From Thermococcus aggregans (GTDB taxonomy: Archaea > Methanobacteriota_B > Thermococci > Thermococcales > Thermococcaceae): a stretch of DNA of 64,000 bases. The stretch covers positions 1,116,001-1,180,000 of the forward strand of contig NZ_CP099582.1 in the NCBI RefSeq assembly GCF_024022995.1, in the 5' to 3' direction. This document shows positions 17,783 through 24,837 of the stretch, one piece after another. How positions within the stretch are numbered: position 1 is the first letter of the stretch; every line of letters begins with the position of its first letter. Position numbers and translations under genes: made by a program. Under the pieces are notes generated by a model. That model was not told the DNA's origin. It did not search any database and saw nothing but the letters and a program-made list of their open reading frames with translations.

Positions 17783-18349
17783 TTGGTTGACTTGAGTAAT
17801 GTTGAGCTTAAGATAGAGAATATTGTGGCCTCGGTGGATCTTTTTGCTTCATTGGATCTTGAGAAGGTCATAGAGATATGTCCCCATTCTAAGTACAATC
17901 CAGAGGAATTTCCAGGGATAATATGCCGCTTTGATGAGCCAAAGGTAGCTCTTCTTGTGTTCAGCTCCGGTAAACTTGTGGTTACTGGGGCAAAAAGTGT
18001 TGAAGATATCAAAGCAGCGGTTTCGAAGCTTGTTGAAATGCTGTCAAAGATTGGGACTAAGTTCACAAGGGAGCCCGAGATAGATATCCAAAATATGGTC
18101 TTTAGCGGCGATCTTAAGATGGAGTTTAACCTCGATGCCGTCGCTCTTGTGTTGCCCAACTGTGAGTATGAGCCAGAACAGTTCCCCGGTGTTATTTATC
18201 GTGTTAAAGAGCCAAGGGCAGTTATACTCCTTTTCAGCTCTGGAAAAATTGTGTGCAGTGGAGCAAAGAGCGAACAGGATGCGTGGGAAGCCGTTAAAAA
18301 GCTCCTCCACGAGCTCGAGAAATACGGCCTCATCGAGGAAGATGCTTAG
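17783..18349 (+). CDS. tbp: TATA-box-binding protein (TBP)
   Basis: 188 residues in two direct repeats of about 90 residues. Each has the TBP signature: [18 protein letters not shown] and [18 protein letters not shown], followed by EFPGIICRF or QFPGVIYRV and a F-SSGK-V-(T/C)SGAKS segment. TBP recognises the TATA box and with TFB recruits RNA polymerase. The frame extends nine bases upstream, but GGAGGTG is placed right for the TTG at 17783, giving a protein starting VDLSN as in related TBPs. The C-terminus ends LIEEDA, without the longer Glu run that I recall in Pyrococcus TBP. Confidence 0.97.
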
Positions 18350-18365
18350 TTCTTCTTTAACTTTT

Positions 18366-18614
18366 CTGGAGAGCTTTACAAAGCTTTAGAAGGCAGAATT
18401 TGCCACGAAAGCTTTCGAGTTGGGTCTAGCCGAAGAGGATTCCAACCTCTTCAACATATACGAAAGTCAATACTCTATTGTCCTAAAGATTCTCCGCAAA
18501 TTGGGCATGATTTACAAGAAGGAGGGCTTTTATTACACCAGCCCACACTTTAAAAACGCCCTTGAGTCAATTGGGCGATTATGGAAGGATTGGAGGGCTG
18601 GATTAGTTGACTAG
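18366..18614 (+). pseudogene. Broken or frameshifted small ORF downstream of TBP
   Basis: An open frame from the TTG at 18420 to 18614 encodes a plausible C-terminal piece (LFNIYESQYSIVLKILRKLG, then FYYTSPHFKNALESIGRLWKDWR), reminiscent of a winged-helix-like fold, but it lacks a ribosome-binding site. Upstream, a different frame gives SGELYKALEGRICHESF, which would join it with a frameshift near 18405. I read this as a decayed or frameshifted gene rather than a working one. It lies between TBP and a VapBC-like pair, at the edge of an accessory-looking stretch. Family unknown. Confidence 0.4.
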
Positions 18615-18617
18615 AAG

Positions 18618-19058
18618 CTAACACATCTTTCTCAATTCTTCTTTCAGGAATTCTATTGGTTTGAGTATCTTAGCTCGATGATCCTTAAGTTGTAAGGTTT
18701 TCTCCTTATCCCTTAAATTCAGTAAGTCCTCATCCCATGTTAGAATTATATGGGCTTTTGCTTCATATGCAATGTCGAGCCATTTGTTGTCGTCCTCATC
18801 ACGACAGAGGTTAAAGTGTTCTTTTGGCTCAATTACCTCTGTCCCATAAAGAAAATTCGCAAGCACTTGCAGCCAATTTTCGCCCAGCTTTTCTTCCTCT
18901 TCGAGAAGTGCAATCTTAATTTGAAGCTCCTCTAAGGCTTCCTGACTGGTATAATTGATAAAGACTTTTTTGTCGAGAAGGTCTACGAGCAGGGCTGCTA
19001 GCCCTTTTGGTTTTATCATGGCAGCTAGGACAACATTGGTGTCCATAACAAGCTTCAT
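18618..19058 (-). CDS. PIN-domain toxin (VapC-like ribonuclease)
   Basis: 146 residues from the ATG at 19058. The PIN fold's acidic residues are visible: MDTNVVL near the N-terminus (first Asp), an SQEALEEL segment (Glu), DEDDNKWLDIAYEA (Asp) and TWDEDLL (last Asp). VapC toxins cleave tRNA or rRNA until bound by their antitoxin. The ATG overlaps the stop of the upstream antitoxin gene as ATGA, so translation is coupled. The longer upstream frame would run through the antitoxin and is not used. Confidence 0.85.
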   Translation of the reverse strand: MKLVMDTNVVLAAMIKPKGLAALLVDLLDKKVFINYTSQEALEELQIKIALLEEEEKLGENWLQVLANFLYGTEVIEPKEHFNLCRDEDDNKWLDIAYEAKAHIILTWDEDLLNLRDKEKTLQLKDHRAKILKPIEFLKEELRKMC

Positions 19059-19378
19059 TTCTTTGCACCCTTGAGCTCCTTCCACCTTTTGTCGATTTCC
19101 TCTAGAATGTCCTTGACTTCTGGCCATTCATCTTCGATCTCTCCGCTAAGGAGCTTTTGAAGAGCCTGCTTCGACCTTGCTCTGGCCTCTTCTGGCGTGA
19201 TTGTTTTTGCTTTTTCTCTTGCCTTTTCCATCATTATCTGTCCAAGAGTCAATGTTACAGCATATTTGATGAAGTCTGACCTGCTTTTGAACTCTCCTTC
19301 TTTTATGAGTTCATCTATTTTCTTGATTAGGTATTTTGGAAGTCTCACCGAGACTGGATGCTCAACAACCTGAGCCAT
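19055..19378 (-). CDS. Ribbon-helix-helix antitoxin (VapB-like)
   Basis: 107 residues. The N-terminus (HPVSVRLPKYLIKKIDELI, then GEFKSRSDFIKYAV) is a ribbon-helix-helix DNA-binding domain: one beta strand and two helices. The charged C-terminal part (EEARARSKQALQKLLSGEIEDEW) probably wraps the toxin. GGTGA lies six bases before the ATG at 19378. It would neutralise the adjacent PIN toxin and repress its own promoter. Confidence 0.85.
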   Translation of the reverse strand: MAQVVEHPVSVRLPKYLIKKIDELIKEGEFKSRSDFIKYAVTLTLGQIMMEKAREKAKTITPEEARARSKQALQKLLSGEIEDEWPEVKDILEEIDKRWKELKGAKK

Positions 19379-19390
19379 AAATCTCACCAA

Positions 19391-19424
19391 ATACTATTGT
19401 ATTACAATTGTATTTAAACCTTGC
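19391..19424 (-). promoter_or_regulatory. Promoter/operator of the VapBC-like pair
   Basis: On the minus strand, TTTAAATAC serves as TATA. On the plus strand, ATTGTATT occurs twice as a direct repeat (around 19397 and 19406), with ACAATTGT as a perfect small palindrome between. Such paired AT-rich boxes are typical ribbon-helix-helix operators, so autorepression by the antitoxin is likely. Confidence 0.45.
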
Positions 19425-19565
19425 GAAGGACATGGCATTTGATTGAAAAAGGCCGCGACATAGTGTTGATAATGTATGGATCTCACTCAGCGTAGTTAGT
19501 TCTCCGTAGTTGGTTCTTCAAGTACAGATACTAGAGGACACCTTCAGGTTTTGGGCGAAGCGCAT

Positions 19566-19914
19566 TTACCACTCTTCAAACTCGACACCATCAAAAATCC
19601 CCTCCCTTCCCCTTTCTTCACTCGGTTCATGCGCCCCACTTCCACAGGATTGTCCTGTCGAACCTTGTATCCACTTCGACCGGCTTGTAGCCGGCGTTTA
19701 CCTCCATATGATTAATTTCCTCAAAAGTTTCCCTGCTAACTTCATATACTTCAACCTTTAGCCTTCTTTTGCCTTTGACTGCATAGGGGAGAACGTCAAC
19801 GTAAAGGTCGTAACCCTCGATCCACTCCTCACCGAGGAATTTGCCATCTCTTAAATAACCATGCAGCGGTTTACCCTTCCTAAGAGTGCTGTAAACTGCA
19901 ATCTTCATCACCAT
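19566..19914 (-). CDS. GGCT/AIG2-like fold protein, probably frameshifted near its C-terminus
   Basis: The intact frame covers 19627-19914 (95 residues): AVYSTLRKGKPLHGYL at the N-terminus is the Y-GTLR motif of the gamma-glutamylcyclotransferase/AIG2-like family, and a conserved acidic loop (EEINHMEVNAGY) follows. It stops after WKWGA. In the next frame the sequence runs on as EPSEERGREGIFDGVEFEEW to a stop at 19566, like the C-terminal extension known in related Pyrococcus proteins. Removing one G from the GGGG run near 19631-19634 would join them. I read this as a recent frameshift or a sequence error. The function is likely a small cyclotransferase, but unproven. Starts at 19914 or 19908. 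Confidence 0.7.
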
Positions 19915-20059
19915 CCCTCACAATCGTCATTTACCTTCTCTCCTTAAACTTTCCAGCTTTCTCCATTTTGACTTTCTTCACTTGGGGGCTGCTAGTCATT
20001 TATCTTCGTTCTTGACCTTTTTAGAGCACCAGACTCAATTAGGACAAAAAAATTAAAAA

Positions 20060-22927
20060 TCAGCTGAAGCTCGCAAAGCCTATCTCATACAGCTGGCGGA
20101 GCATGCGTAGAACTTTCTTGGCAGTGTGCTTGAAGAGGAACTTATCCTTTTCGGTTTCCCAGTTTTTGAGAATTTCAATGACCTCCTTTCTTCCAAGTTC
20201 TTGGACGTTGATTCCTGCATTCTCTGAAAGGCAAAGCTCCAAAACCACCTTTAGGGGCTCTTCAAGCTTCTTTCTGTTCCCGTGGAACTTGGGAAGGACT
20301 TTCATGAGCAGTGCTAGGTCAAAAATTTCATCATCGCTTTCGAATTCAACTATCCCCTTATCCCAGCTTTCTTTGGCGTTCTTGAAAAACAAAGCAATCT
20401 CGTCAACAACACGATAGCCGAAGTGCAGGTCATAGGGTTCAAGAGCTTTGTTGAGTTGGTTGAGGATTTCCCAGTACTTTCCGTTTTCGGCATTTTTGAG
20501 CCTTTCGAGGGCTTTTTCTATATCCCCTTTCTCTTGGCTATCCTTTTCTCTCTTGTAAACTGCAAGGAACTTTCCATTTCTCCTCAGGTCGTCCAGGACT
20601 TTTCTTCTTAGCTCCTCACGTTCCCCTTCAGATAACTTAGTTTCCTCTGGGGGATAGTTTTCTAAGTCAACATCGTGGAATTCTATCGTAAAAGCTCTAT
20701 CGAGAACCTTCGGGCTGAATGAGTATGTGGTCTCATCAATGTTCACAGTTCCGATTATGTAGAGGTTTGGCGGAAGCTTAAGCTCTTTGGGTATGCCTTG
20801 GAATGTCTCAACGGCATCATTGTCGTGGAGTTTTATGCTCTCCTTTGTGAAGCCACTTTCATCTCTTCCGCTCTCAAGGACGCTGAGGAAGTCGGCGAAG
20901 TAGTACTCAACGTGGGCGAGGTTCATCTCGTCAAGGATGATGAAGTAGGGCATTGCATTTTCTCTGTTTTGCTCATAGTCTTCTTTGGCCCTCAATATGA
21001 ACTCCAAGAGGGAAGTCTTGTGGTATTCTCCAGTTAGTGGATTGTAATAGCCTAGCAGTGGTTTGGAATCCCTCCAGTCCGGGCGGACGGAGAGGAAGAT
21101 ATGGTTGCTAATTTCGGGTGTGCAGTCTTCTGGAGCTTTTACTAGTGCATAGCCGTTTTGCATCCTTGAGGCATCTCGAGGGCTTAATTCTCGATTTTTG
21201 GCAATATCTCTGAATTTTGAAATCTCAGAACCACACTCGATAACCTTCCAAACTTTGAAGAAAATCTCGTGTTCGTTTATATACTTTTCAACGGTTTCAT
21301 CGCTATACACTGTTTCAACCCACTTAGTCGCCGATTTCCATTCTTTCGGTAAGTTTTCTTTATCTGTCCAGACATCACTAACGATAATACCGTAGGGGAC
21401 TTTTTGGTAGAACTTATCGTTTGGATCGCTATCATAGAGCCAAAAAATAAACGGGGGCTTGATATCCTTTGCCTTTCCTGCAGGTTTCCAGCCATAAACT
21501 GCAAACTTATGTCTTTTGATTATATCTTGTAACGCTTTAATTTCTCTCTCAGCTTTTGTGTTTTTGCCTGATGCTGACATCAACTGCGGCATTTCTAGTA
21601 TTTCAACAAATTTCTGCACTATTTTTGTCTTTCCTGTTCCAGTGAGGCCGGAGAGGATCACGAAGCCCTTAGTTTTTAGAGCGGTGTAGAACTGGGCAAT
21701 GAGGTGTTCTGGGTACAGGTAGCCTTCTGATTTTAAATACTTTGATAATGGTATGTGCTGATTTTGGTCATGCGCTTTTCCACCATGTTCTAATGAAATA
21801 CCGAGCTCCTCCAGAACTCTAGGGCTAATCTCGGTTAAGTAAACTCCTTGAAGCCTTGCAGGGTGCGGAAGACCTTTGACTTCAGTGTACCGGTGCGTTT
21901 TATCTAATTCTTTAAAGTCTTCGAGCCTAACTAAGTAGAATTTTCCAGTCAAGGACTTTTTAAACCAGTCCTCAGCAAATTTTGAATACTTTTCAGTCCA
22001 GATGCCCTCTTCAGTGAATATCTTGATTATTTCTTCTTTGGAAACTTCTTTAACTTCTTCTTTCACTTTGGAATATCCCACTAGTTCTCCATTGACGTCG
22101 TGCAGTATAATATCTCCTGGTTTTAGTAGTCCCATTTTTCCTTCACGACCATTCCAATATTTTTGATCAGCTGGAGACCAAAGAAACCTGCCTACGTGGT
22201 TTTCTTCATAGAGCTTTCCGGGAGGTTTTGTAATCTCCAAATAATAGCCTTTATTTTGTGTAGTTTTTTGATTTCCTGTAATTTCCTGGTCTCTAGAAAA
22301 TTTGCTCATATAAAAAGCAGCCTCAAAGGCTGTTTTAATATCAATCTCTGGTTTGATTTGGTTTATTTTTTTCAAAAATTCTAGATAATCAGATATGTGT
22401 TTTCTCCAGCCCCCTCCATAAACAAGTTGAATGCCTGTTGTCCTTCTTATTATTTCACGGAATTCTCTACTTTGAACATTTCCATGTATTGGCATGAATA
22501 TGTTGGGATTTACTATCGAAGCCCAAGTGCTTATTATCGAAAGCCCTACTTCAGCTTCAGGTATTTTTATGGCTCCTATCTTTGCTTCTAAAGTTTTTAC
22601 TGTACTATCATCCAACTTATTCACTGTTGCTGCAGTTGTGAGGAACTCCCTGAAGTTCCTATCAGTCAGCACTGTGTTCAATATGTTGATTTTCATAGAG
22701 TTGCTGTAGTAACCTGGCCCGTGGACGTAATAGAGCATCTTTCGAATCGCTGGAGGCAGTTGTTCAAGTAAATTAACAATTTCATTAGTTTTAGGAGTTT
22801 CTTCTAACAAAAGTCTAGTTATTGCCCTAAATACCTTAAAAGTCTCTGACTCATATTGTTCCCATTCATGCGAATATTTCTTTTTCAATTCTAGAAGGAT
22901 TTCCTTCAGGGGTTTTTCAGTTTTCAT
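20060..22927 (-). CDS. mcrB: McrB-like AAA+ GTPase with N-terminal reader domain
   Basis: 955 residues. The C-terminal half is the McrB-type AAA+ motor: Walker A GLTGTGKT near residue 427, Walker B FIILDEMNLAH near 660, and the GTP-type signature GTVNIDETT near 724. Upstream (about 220-390) is a compact domain with WSPADQKYWNG and MGLLKPGDIILH followed by a FYLVRLEDF segment, suggestive of an EVE/YTH/PUA-like modified-base reader. The first 200 residues are helical and unassigned. With McrC it would restrict DNA carrying modified bases. GGAGGTGAGATATC precedes the ATG; the gene overlaps mcrC by 11 bases. No methyltransferase gene is adjacent, as expected for a type IV system. Confidence 0.9.
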   Translation of the reverse strand: MKTEKPLKEILLELKKKYSHEWEQYESETFKVFRAITRLLLEETPKTNEIVNLLEQLPPAIRKMLYYVHGPGYYSNSMKINILNTVLTDRNFREFLTTAATVNKLDDSTVKTLEAKIGAIKIPEAEVGLSIISTWASIVNPNIFMPIHGNVQSREFREIIRRTTGIQLVYGGGWRKHISDYLEFLKKINQIKPEIDIKTAFEAAFYMSKFSRDQEITGNQKTTQNKGYYLEITKPPGKLYEENHVGRFLWSPADQKYWNGREGKMGLLKPGDIILHDVNGELVGYSKVKEEVKEVSKEEIIKIFTEEGIWTEKYSKFAEDWFKKSLTGKFYLVRLEDFKELDKTHRYTEVKGLPHPARLQGVYLTEISPRVLEELGISLEHGGKAHDQNQHIPLSKYLKSEGYLYPEHLIAQFYTALKTKGFVILSGLTGTGKTKIVQKFVEILEMPQLMSASGKNTKAEREIKALQDIIKRHKFAVYGWKPAGKAKDIKPPFIFWLYDSDPNDKFYQKVPYGIIVSDVWTDKENLPKEWKSATKWVETVYSDETVEKYINEHEIFFKVWKVIECGSEISKFRDIAKNRELSPRDASRMQNGYALVKAPEDCTPEISNHIFLSVRPDWRDSKPLLGYYNPLTGEYHKTSLLEFILRAKEDYEQNRENAMPYFIILDEMNLAHVEYYFADFLSVLESGRDESGFTKESIKLHDNDAVETFQGIPKELKLPPNLYIIGTVNIDETTYSFSPKVLDRAFTIEFHDVDLENYPPEETKLSEGEREELRRKVLDDLRRNGKFLAVYKREKDSQEKGDIEKALERLKNAENGKYWEILNQLNKALEPYDLHFGYRVVDEIALFFKNAKESWDKGIVEFESDDEIFDLALLMKVLPKFHGNRKKLEEPLKVVLELCLSENAGINVQELGRKEVIEILKNWETEKDKFLFKHTAKKVLRMLRQLYEIGFASFS

Positions 22928-24572
22928 GATATCTCACCTCCGGTACAAAACTTAGATATCCAACACCACTACGATTCCCAATCAAAATGCTCTCCAAATT
23001 CAATTCTTCAACCTTCCCCCTCTTAACATCAAAAAACACGCTCCTCTGGCCGGGGTAAAGCACTACGGCAAACCTAGCATTTAGAGCATCTTTGTAAGTG
23101 TGCATCTTGTAGATGTCCTCAAGCTTTGCCCATGTTTGAAGGCTGGGTTCTTTTTCCATTTTCCTATCCTCTTCCGCGAACTTATTAGCATCAACTACAT
23201 CAAGCTTGAACTTCGCATCAAAAACCCCAACAAGCTCCTCATTTTTAAAAAGAGAAAAATCTGGCCTCAATGAAACCGAATAACCACGCTTTTTTTGATT
23301 GTAGTATAGCTTCCAACCGTTGCCAAACTCGGCGTAAACTTTCTCTCTCCCGTCGCTCTTGTGGAGTTCCCCCGTTGGCTCAATTATTATCTTTAAGTCC
23401 TTCTGCTCCCATATCTCTCCAAGTTCCTCCACAAGCTTGAAGAAGCACCAATACTCGTATAGCGTAGCAATGTCCTTATTCTCAATAGCTTTCTGGAGCT
23501 CTCCGAAGAATGGAACATAAACTGTGAACTCCCTGTAGAGTTCAAGCAGATCGCGATAGCCGTCACCCTTAAGAAGTGTCTGGGAAGTGTATGGAAACAT
23601 CTCCATCTCACCAATTTCACTCCAAATGGGGTCGCTTCCTATGAATTCAAGCTCTTCGAGAAGACCTTTAATAGGCTCAATATCAGCCTTAAAATTCCTA
23701 AAAGCTTCAAGCACGCGCTCGCCCCACTCAATCAGCAGATTAAGGAAGTATTTGGCAAAGCGGTTTTCTGGAGTGTCAAAGCTCTCGTATTTTTGGAAGC
23801 TGAGAACTTTAGTGGGGGCATAACCATTGAGGCGTTTTGCCATTAAAACACCTTCGCCGGCTGGGGCTAAATACTCAGGATTCTGGACGATGGAAACCAA
23901 TGTCTCAGGGGTTATCTCATCCACTTCGTCTGGCCTTAGCCATTCTTCTTCAACCACCAGCTTACGTTTGATTTTTCTTAGCACAGTTTCGAAAGCCTCT
24001 ATAATGCGCTCTTTGTTGGAGCGTAAGTAGTGGTAGGCGAAGAATTCATTCATGGGTTCATCGCTTTCTTCGACAGTAAATGCAGTGGGGGATTTTATTG
24101 AGAAATTAAGTTGGGAGGAGGTACGGGTTATGTCGTCCGTTAAGGTTTGACATAGGATATTGAATCTTTCAATTAGTTTTTCTACAGCTTTTTCCCTCTC
24201 TTTGGTATCTTCTATTTTGCTGAGGTCTATAACTTTCCAATATTCGGGGGCAATTTTTCCAAACTTCTCGGAAAGCACAATAAGGGGAAATTCGCGCCTT
24301 TTTCCATGCGAATCTTCAATAATCAGCCTTGACTTTCCGATGTAGTTTTTGAAGGTGAAGGTAAAAGTGTTCTTGTTAATGCTACTTCTTTGAATGTCCT
24401 CCAGTCCGGGAATAATGACTTTAGCTCCATTGGCATCTATCTCGTAGGTCTTCCACTCGAAGAGTACTATCTCGCCACTTTCTCGTAGAAAAGCCCAACA
24501 GCTACCCTCAACACTTCCCAGCTGAAATGGAAGGTTTAGATTTCTTTCTTCATTTTTCTTCTCAATGCACAT
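22917..24572 (-). CDS. mcrC: McrC-like nuclease subunit with DUF2357-type N-terminus
   Basis: About 551 residues. The central FDTPENRFAKYFL segment is typical of DUF2357/McrC-like proteins. Near residues 440-465 RPDFSLF and VGVFDAKFKL form the PD-(D/E)xK nuclease motif, where the D and the D-A-K triad would bind metal. It is the endonuclease partner of McrB. The frame is open from a TTG at 24581, but ATG at 24572 is more likely though its ribosome-binding site is weak. mcrC precedes mcrB in transcription, the reverse of the E. coli order. Confidence 0.85.
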   Translation of the reverse strand: MCIEKKNEERNLNLPFQLGSVEGSCWAFLRESGEIVLFEWKTYEIDANGAKVIIPGLEDIQRSSINKNTFTFTFKNYIGKSRLIIEDSHGKRREFPLIVLSEKFGKIAPEYWKVIDLSKIEDTKEREKAVEKLIERFNILCQTLTDDITRTSSQLNFSIKSPTAFTVEESDEPMNEFFAYHYLRSNKERIIEAFETVLRKIKRKLVVEEEWLRPDEVDEITPETLVSIVQNPEYLAPAGEGVLMAKRLNGYAPTKVLSFQKYESFDTPENRFAKYFLNLLIEWGERVLEAFRNFKADIEPIKGLLEELEFIGSDPIWSEIGEMEMFPYTSQTLLKGDGYRDLLELYREFTVYVPFFGELQKAIENKDIATLYEYWCFFKLVEELGEIWEQKDLKIIIEPTGELHKSDGREKVYAEFGNGWKLYYNQKKRGYSVSLRPDFSLFKNEELVGVFDAKFKLDVVDANKFAEEDRKMEKEPSLQTWAKLEDIYKMHTYKDALNARFAVVLYPGQRSVFFDVKRGKVEELNLESILIGNRSGVGYLSFVPEVRYHEN

Positions 24573-24613
24573 AATAACCAATGAACTGCACCAAAAGTTA
24601 CTAAGCCCCAGAG

Positions 24614-24712
24614 TTAATAAGCATTTCGGAAAAGAAAGGCATCAAAGCCCCCATATTTCTTTTCCAACTTCCTCCAACGTTTTCCGTGTTCTTCACCAAT
24701 TAGGAATTGCAA
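24614..24712 (-). pseudogene. Possible gene relic upstream of mcrC
   Basis: In the 300-base gap between mcrC and the ABC exporter, the minus strand encodes a coding-like tail (GEEHGKRWRKLEKKYGGFDA, then FLFRNAY and stop). Just upstream another frame gives QERLYGYEINKDSIAIPNW and a stop. Together they look like remains of a gene broken by a frameshift. No ribosome-binding site or good start is present, and I do not recognise the family. The rest of the gap holds only the ABC exporter promoter. Confidence 0.35.
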
Positions 24713-24837
24713 TACTATCTTTGTTTATTTCATACCCGTAGAGTCTCTCTTGGACTTTTGCAGAATATCAAGGGACATGGGTCAAAACGTCAATAATAGG
24801 TATTTTCTATTTTTTATAAAGACAAAAGACAATCTTT

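Follow-up and report, generated by a model that had tools for sequence, protein, structure and literature searches.

We found that the McrB protein of an McrBC operon in the window (the whole stretch of 64,000 nucleotides analysed) is predicted to carry a second PUA-fold domain inside its GTPase, in addition to a YTH/EVE-type reader ahead of the motor. As established by computation from slot positions and from exchange among relatives, each of these parts has its fixed place in a conserved motor, and recombination swaps them at a single chromosomal site. We consider it quite likely that the locus encodes an McrBC-type (type IV) restriction system whose targets are chosen by the front YTH/EVE-type reader, the in-motor PUA domain and a glycosylase-like module, with such parts being exchanged. 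A specificity slot would be located inside an AAA+ restriction motor, where readers are exchanged on a short evolutionary time scale, and a constant motor with interchangeable readers would help in engineering enzymes for DNA modifications of choice.

The operon, its nuclease and its motor

The operon lies on the minus strand of a 1.89-Mb genome of Thermococcales type. The genes mcrC (24572..22917) and mcrB (22927..20060) overlap by 11 nucleotides, and the first-pass annotation had given both their places and their order, mcrC then mcrB, correctly. It had also stated that no methyltransferase is nearby, and when the whole genome was searched for four methyltransferase families, all matches indeed fell outside the window. 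From its ATG at 24572, McrC is 551 residues long; the reading frame is open 9 nucleotides earlier, from a TTG at 24581, and ends at 22917. The ATG of mcrB is preceded by an RBS-like sequence, GGAGGTGA, and McrB is a modular protein of 955 residues.

McrC consists of an N-terminal region, a DUF2357 finger/scaffold (E 1.8e-34 in a profile scan) and a PD-(D/E)xK nuclease (PDDEXK_7, E 1.6e-15). The nuclease motif (23211..23264, minus strand) comprises P440, D441, D455, A456 and K457 in the numbering from the TTG. These residues are invariant in 31 aligned relatives, and the PD-(D/E)xK site accordingly reads as intact.

Walker A, Walker B and the N...D signature are all present in the AAA+ motor of McrB. 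A motif scan located GLTGTGKT at residues 427-434 (21626..21649, minus strand) and DEMN at residues 666-669 (20921..20932, minus strand), and the signature N729-I-D731 (20735..20743, minus strand) stands within GTVNIDETT. McrB matched the PADLOC candidate PDC-M26A (E 3.3e-50), and a motor profile search of solved structures gave Thermococcus gammatolerans McrB (TgMcrB) as its only match (E 7.5e-4). Judged by its motifs, the motor belongs to the NxD branch and not to the NxxD branch of TgMcrB. The NxD branch was defined by Bell et al. 2024 (PMC11090510), and according to their census it had no characterised member until then; thermostable, testable proteins of the branch are now on offer.

The position next to Walker A bears on the nucleotide used. 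In TgMcrB, Trp223 directly after Walker A stacks on guanine and is essential, and in every homologue that the authors of that study aligned, the position is taken by Trp, Phe, Tyr or Arg (PMC7680126). The window McrB has Lys435, which is not aromatic, at this position. Lys also follows Walker A in 92 of 101 scanned NxD motors, the others having Arg (6) or Gln (3), and archaeal NxxD motors (n=14) have Trp (11), Tyr (2) or Gln (1). The missing stacking residue, as read from the alignments, casts doubt on GTP use by the window McrB and not on McrB homology. An acute question follows: is GTP the nucleotide of NxD McrBs in the first place, given that the residue which would stack on guanine is missing?

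Putative recognition modules of McrB

Residues 1-392 of McrB were modelled with AF2 (mean pLDDT 91). When this model was used in a Foldseek search, the N-domain of Staphylothermus marinus McrB (6n0s) was matched with an E-value of 4.9e-8 and the EVE nuclease VcaM4I with 1.5e-4, followed by further EVE and YTH domains. A reader profile made from 14 relatives matched 6n0s among solved structures (E 2.5e-10) and VcaM4I weakly (0.12). Both profile and model point to a PUA fold of YTH/EVE type for residues 226-378 (21794..22252, minus strand), which we call module 2. The first-pass annotation had placed a reader-like domain ahead of the motor and had proposed structure prediction of residues 1-400 with comparison to EVE and YTH domains as a check; the matches to 6n0s, EVE and YTH obtained with residues 1-392 bear it out. 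It had also mentioned Thermococcus McrBs with YTH-like readers of 6mA. The YTH/EVE type of reader was upheld, and its nearest solved relative proved to be S. marinus 6n0s and not the T. gammatolerans domain that binds 6mA. In the weak VcaM4I alignment, in which one segment of a possible aromatic cage was compared, W250-S-P252 of the window McrB stands opposite W22-S-P24, and P24 of VcaM4I lines the pocket for the flipped base (PMC7897488). The window reader shares with 6n0s a PUA-like fold and a profile recognisable over the whole domain, although the similarity is weak (22% identity in the fold search) and the window McrB differs in having a helical module ahead of the reader and, within the motor, a predicted further PUA domain.

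This second domain lengthens the motor considerably. Walker A and Walker B are 239 residues apart in the window McrB as compared to 81-83 residues in most relatives, and the approximately 155 extra residues (447-601; 21125..21589, minus strand) lie after the Walker A helix and before the next motor strand, hereafter site 1. Inserts are frequent in McrB GTPases and have been described as likely specificity domains (Bell et al. 2024, PMC11090510). HMMER searches of the insert against Pfam and against PDB sequences gave nothing above chance. A PUA-type fold was predicted from sequence before modelling, and the model matches agreed: with an AF2 model of residues 436-625 (mean pLDDT 82, core above 90), the top 31 Foldseek matches in the PDB were all members of the PUA superfamily (ASCH, YTH, EVE, MJECL36, PH1033 and EOLA). 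The E-values are weak one by one (best 0.014), and the next unrelated fold came at an E-value of about 1. Three Trp residues of the insert (W480, W496 and W536) are invariant in ten members that are 31-64% identical to the window. A profile comparison of the insert with the N-terminal reader detected no sequence similarity, ruling out that the insert is a recent duplicate of that reader. Given the weak single E-values and this lack of profile similarity, any function of the insert has to be read from its fold.

Together, spacing, model and fold matches argue that residues 447-601 form a second PUA-fold domain within the GTPase. The first-pass annotation had described a McrBC locus with a putative modified-base reader, in which an EVE/YTH/PUA-like domain is followed by the GTPase motor. 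The McrBC-type genes and the YTH/EVE-type fold stand; the domain description was incomplete, as the second PUA-fold domain within the GTPase had been overlooked.

Module 1, residues 1-215 of McrB (22283..22927, minus strand), is helical in the model, with pLDDT mostly above 90. It had been annotated as an additional unassigned helical domain of about 200 residues; its helical nature agrees with the model, and it is not unique, being shared by dozens of McrBs of the Thermococcales, NxD and NxxD alike. It is present in two copies in some McrBs, and it is the sole recognised N-terminal module in others. McrBs with a tandem pair were seen at L044, L053 and L060. When the whole module 1 family was compared with an EndoIII alignment by hhalign, a P-value of 1.5e-4 was obtained (0.16 for the reversed control), with a score of 34.9 as against 20.6 or less for 17 unrelated families. 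One subfamily (L050), homologous to the subfamily of the window (E 3.7e-8), gave a P-value of 4.6e-5, its hairpin and its catalytic position both lining up; the window's subfamily alone gave a short helical match only, and MutY was among the Foldseek matches, weakly (E 0.2). The catalytic Asp of HhH-GPD glycosylases was not found in module 1, the residue being His in the window and Asn in the L050 subfamily. A sequence search of solved structures returned designed helical proteins only, which we read as an effect of composition. On balance, module 1 is probably a non-catalytic, glycosylase-like (HhH-GPD) DNA-binding module.

Exchange of parts at one chromosomal site

Of 115 genomes of the phylum, 10 have the site-1 insert, and in every case it occupies this McrB slot. 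Two relatives (L059 and L076) lack it and have a different insert immediately before Walker B (site 2); this one had no Pfam or PDB match and may be called EVE-like on a reading of its sequence. Unrelated inserts occupy the same first slot in 9 of 74 bacterial NxD loci, as would be expected of a specificity slot. The same-slot insert of three NxD McrBs from Myxococcales and Deltaproteobacteria (L171, L172 and L175) resembles, by eye, a B3-type DNA-binding domain.

We counted insert states (site 1, site 2 or none) on the 30 archaeal (Thermococcales) rows of a quick tree of 57 motors, in which some bacterial branches are long, and arrived at a minimum of 7 changes of state for these 30 motors. 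The nearest motor to that of the window, L076, is 92% identical, has no site-1 insert and carries other readers. At the DNA level it is 96% identical over 19347-20973 and 86% identical over mcrC, and other sequence stands in place of the N-terminal segment and of the insert. Related species thus retain motor and nuclease with little change as they swap these parts. In blastn comparisons, both flanks were present and 18342-24784 was absent in two congeners (L159 and L160), which defines an island between tbp and an ABC transporter; a third congener (L158) has at the same site an McrBC with a different N-terminus. T. barophilus MP carries a related McrBC on a plasmid of 54 kb. Within the order, matches to the locus were obtained in 51 of 94 genomes, many of them to parts only. 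The site beside tbp looks like a defence hotspot, and the exchange of parts probably keeps pace with changing viral DNA modifications.

Several further genes were seen at this site and in its relatives. The island also contains a ribbon-helix-helix and PIN gene pair (18618-19390), resembling a VapBC toxin-antitoxin, and a small gamma-glutamylcyclotransferase-like (GGACT) gene (19627-19914) between this pair and mcrB. Stretches 83% identical to the former and 77% identical to the latter are present on the 54-kb T. barophilus MP plasmid, that of the gene pair being close to the plasmid's McrBC (L033). At the variable site, L159 has a broken histone-deacetylase-like gene, and L160 has a metallo-beta-lactamase-fold gene and a small gene. 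A relative of the L160 metallo-beta-lactamase-fold gene belongs to a different operon (L063:1905-8112 and L064:4947-11754), which encodes a stand-alone YTH/EVE-type reader of 155 residues, a metallo-beta-lactamase-fold protein, an NxxD-type McrB and a 459-residue protein that may be McrC. The readers of this NxxD-type McrB are modules 1 and 2 in L064 and module 2 in L063.

Mechanism, rival explanations and the mark

In McrBC biochemistry, modified DNA is chosen by a reader, a ring-shaped motor translocates, and McrC cuts. By analogy, the window McrB would form an NTP-driven ring, its reader domains would select DNA with a modified base before the ring translocates, and the PD-(D/E)xK nuclease of McrC, docked via DUF2357, would cut. 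Module 1 would act at the N-terminus as a helical module of base-flipping, glycosylase-like type. We infer that the modules cooperate and are directed at invader DNA, and the two PUA domains, as modelled, may both bind modified DNA. A further elaboration is tentative and, in our view, rather unlikely in its entirety: up to three base-reading modules (a pseudo-glycosylase, the front YTH/EVE reader and a PUA reader in the NTPase core) would be integrated, binding by the reader in the core could directly gate a nucleotide hydrolysis that is maybe not GTP-specific, and cassettes moving among the N-terminus and the two slots of the motor, at a single chromosomal site, would yield combinatorial recognition of modified viral DNA.

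It is conceivable, if somewhat improbable, that target reading falls to the N-terminal YTH-type domain by itself (with 6mA as one example, as in TgMcrB) and that the insert is structural or regulatory, contacting DNA non-specifically, McrC or a neighbouring subunit. This explanation draws on the kinship of the reader to characterised McrB N-domains and on the lack of the insert in most relatives, which indicates that it is dispensable for motor function. It does not readily account for three Trp residues kept invariant in the insert across such divergent members, nor for a fold of the modified-base-reader type; its alternation with unrelated inserts, be it in the same site of the motor or in a different one, is more in keeping with a role in specificity than with a structural one. 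RNA targeting or abortive infection, as in CoCoNuTs that share the NxD motor, appears very unlikely. Type I CoCoNuTs have YTH-like domains, and RNA is the predicted target of CoCoNuTs (PMC11090510); furthermore, the authors of 6n0s likened the N-domain to PUA-like RNA-binding proteins, as far as the title cited in PMC12707154 tells. Against this stand an intact McrC nuclease, the lack of a long coiled coil in the modelled parts (1-392 and 436-625), the lack of a HEPN partner among the scanned proteins adjoining the operon, and the reported near absence of CoCoNuTs from archaea (PMC11090510).

Defence may not be the only role of such systems. In T. kodakarensis, deletion of McrBC systems raises transformation with autonomous plasmids and also reduces growth (PMC13385129). 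These growth defects, and the glycosylase-like character of module 1, would agree with a housekeeping function in genome maintenance in which the helical module reads damage, an explanation that we regard as highly improbable. The patchy presence of the locus within the order, with many partial matches, the empty sites of congeners, the plasmid copy in T. barophilus MP and the fast exchange of readers form the pattern of defence genes. A type IV restriction system with exchangeable recognition parts remains our preferred reading.

Comparison with known systems places the locus more precisely. TgMcrBC (structures 6ut3-6ut8, with 6p0f for the N-domain) shares with the window a homologous AAA+ motor, a YTH-type N-domain and an McrC with a PD-(D/E)xK nuclease. 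It differs in having NxxD in place of NxD and, following Walker A, Trp223 in place of Lys435, and in its size: the compact TgMcrB of 613 residues has no room for an insert after Walker A. The window motor lacks the NxxD signature of TgMcrB-type 6mA-dependent McrBC, and its YTH/EVE-type reader is nearest to 6n0s. The EVE-HNH nuclease VcaM4I (structure 6yex), a reader of 5mC/5hmC, likewise has a PUA-superfamily reader with an aligned W-S-P pocket segment; unlike the window system it has an HNH nuclease and no motor, and the similarity is at fold level only. LlaJI and EVE-McrB fusions also join specificity domains of other families to McrB motors; the B3 domain of LlaJI acts on unmodified DNA together with methyltransferases, whereas a methyltransferase is absent from the window locus.

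The NxD branch, including CoCoNuTs, shares with the window the NxD motif, GTPase inserts as likely specificity domains, and YTH-like domains (PMC11090510). Membership among the CoCoNuTs was ruled out by the coiled-coil and nuclease features, though the GTPase has the NxD motif: the archaeal window system has no long coiled coil in the modelled parts, no HEPN in the scanned neighbours and no inactive nuclease. Relative to the census of the branch, the insert is here identified as a probable PUA/YTH-type domain with an exact slot and a documented exchange. Reader-McrB fusions and GTPase inserts are already known in general. As far as the searched literature shows, the PUA-fold domain predicted after Walker A, the second slot and the exchange at one site are new. 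The same holds for the interpretation of the helical module as glycosylase-like and for the loss, across the family, of the residue that stacks on guanine.

Finally, we surveyed the methyltransferases of the host for the mark that might be read. Just one clear DNA methyltransferase turned up in the genome, a large N6-adenine methyltransferase of Eco57I/MmeI type (L247; genome positions 926500-941500), probably a single-protein type II restriction-modification enzyme. Because the host has its own N6-adenine methyltransferase, indiscriminate cutting at 6mA would harm it, so a reader would need either a sequence context or another mark. Possible candidates are 6mA, 5mC/5hmC and a viral hypermodification; in the case of 6mA, the motif that the host itself methylates would have to escape cutting. 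A PF00145 search of the host genome identified no C5 DNA methyltransferase, its sole match (L080) being by eye an N6 methyltransferase of RNA type with an NPPF motif. Three N6_N4_Mtase matches (L077-L079) likewise look like RNA methyltransferases, judged from their sequences.
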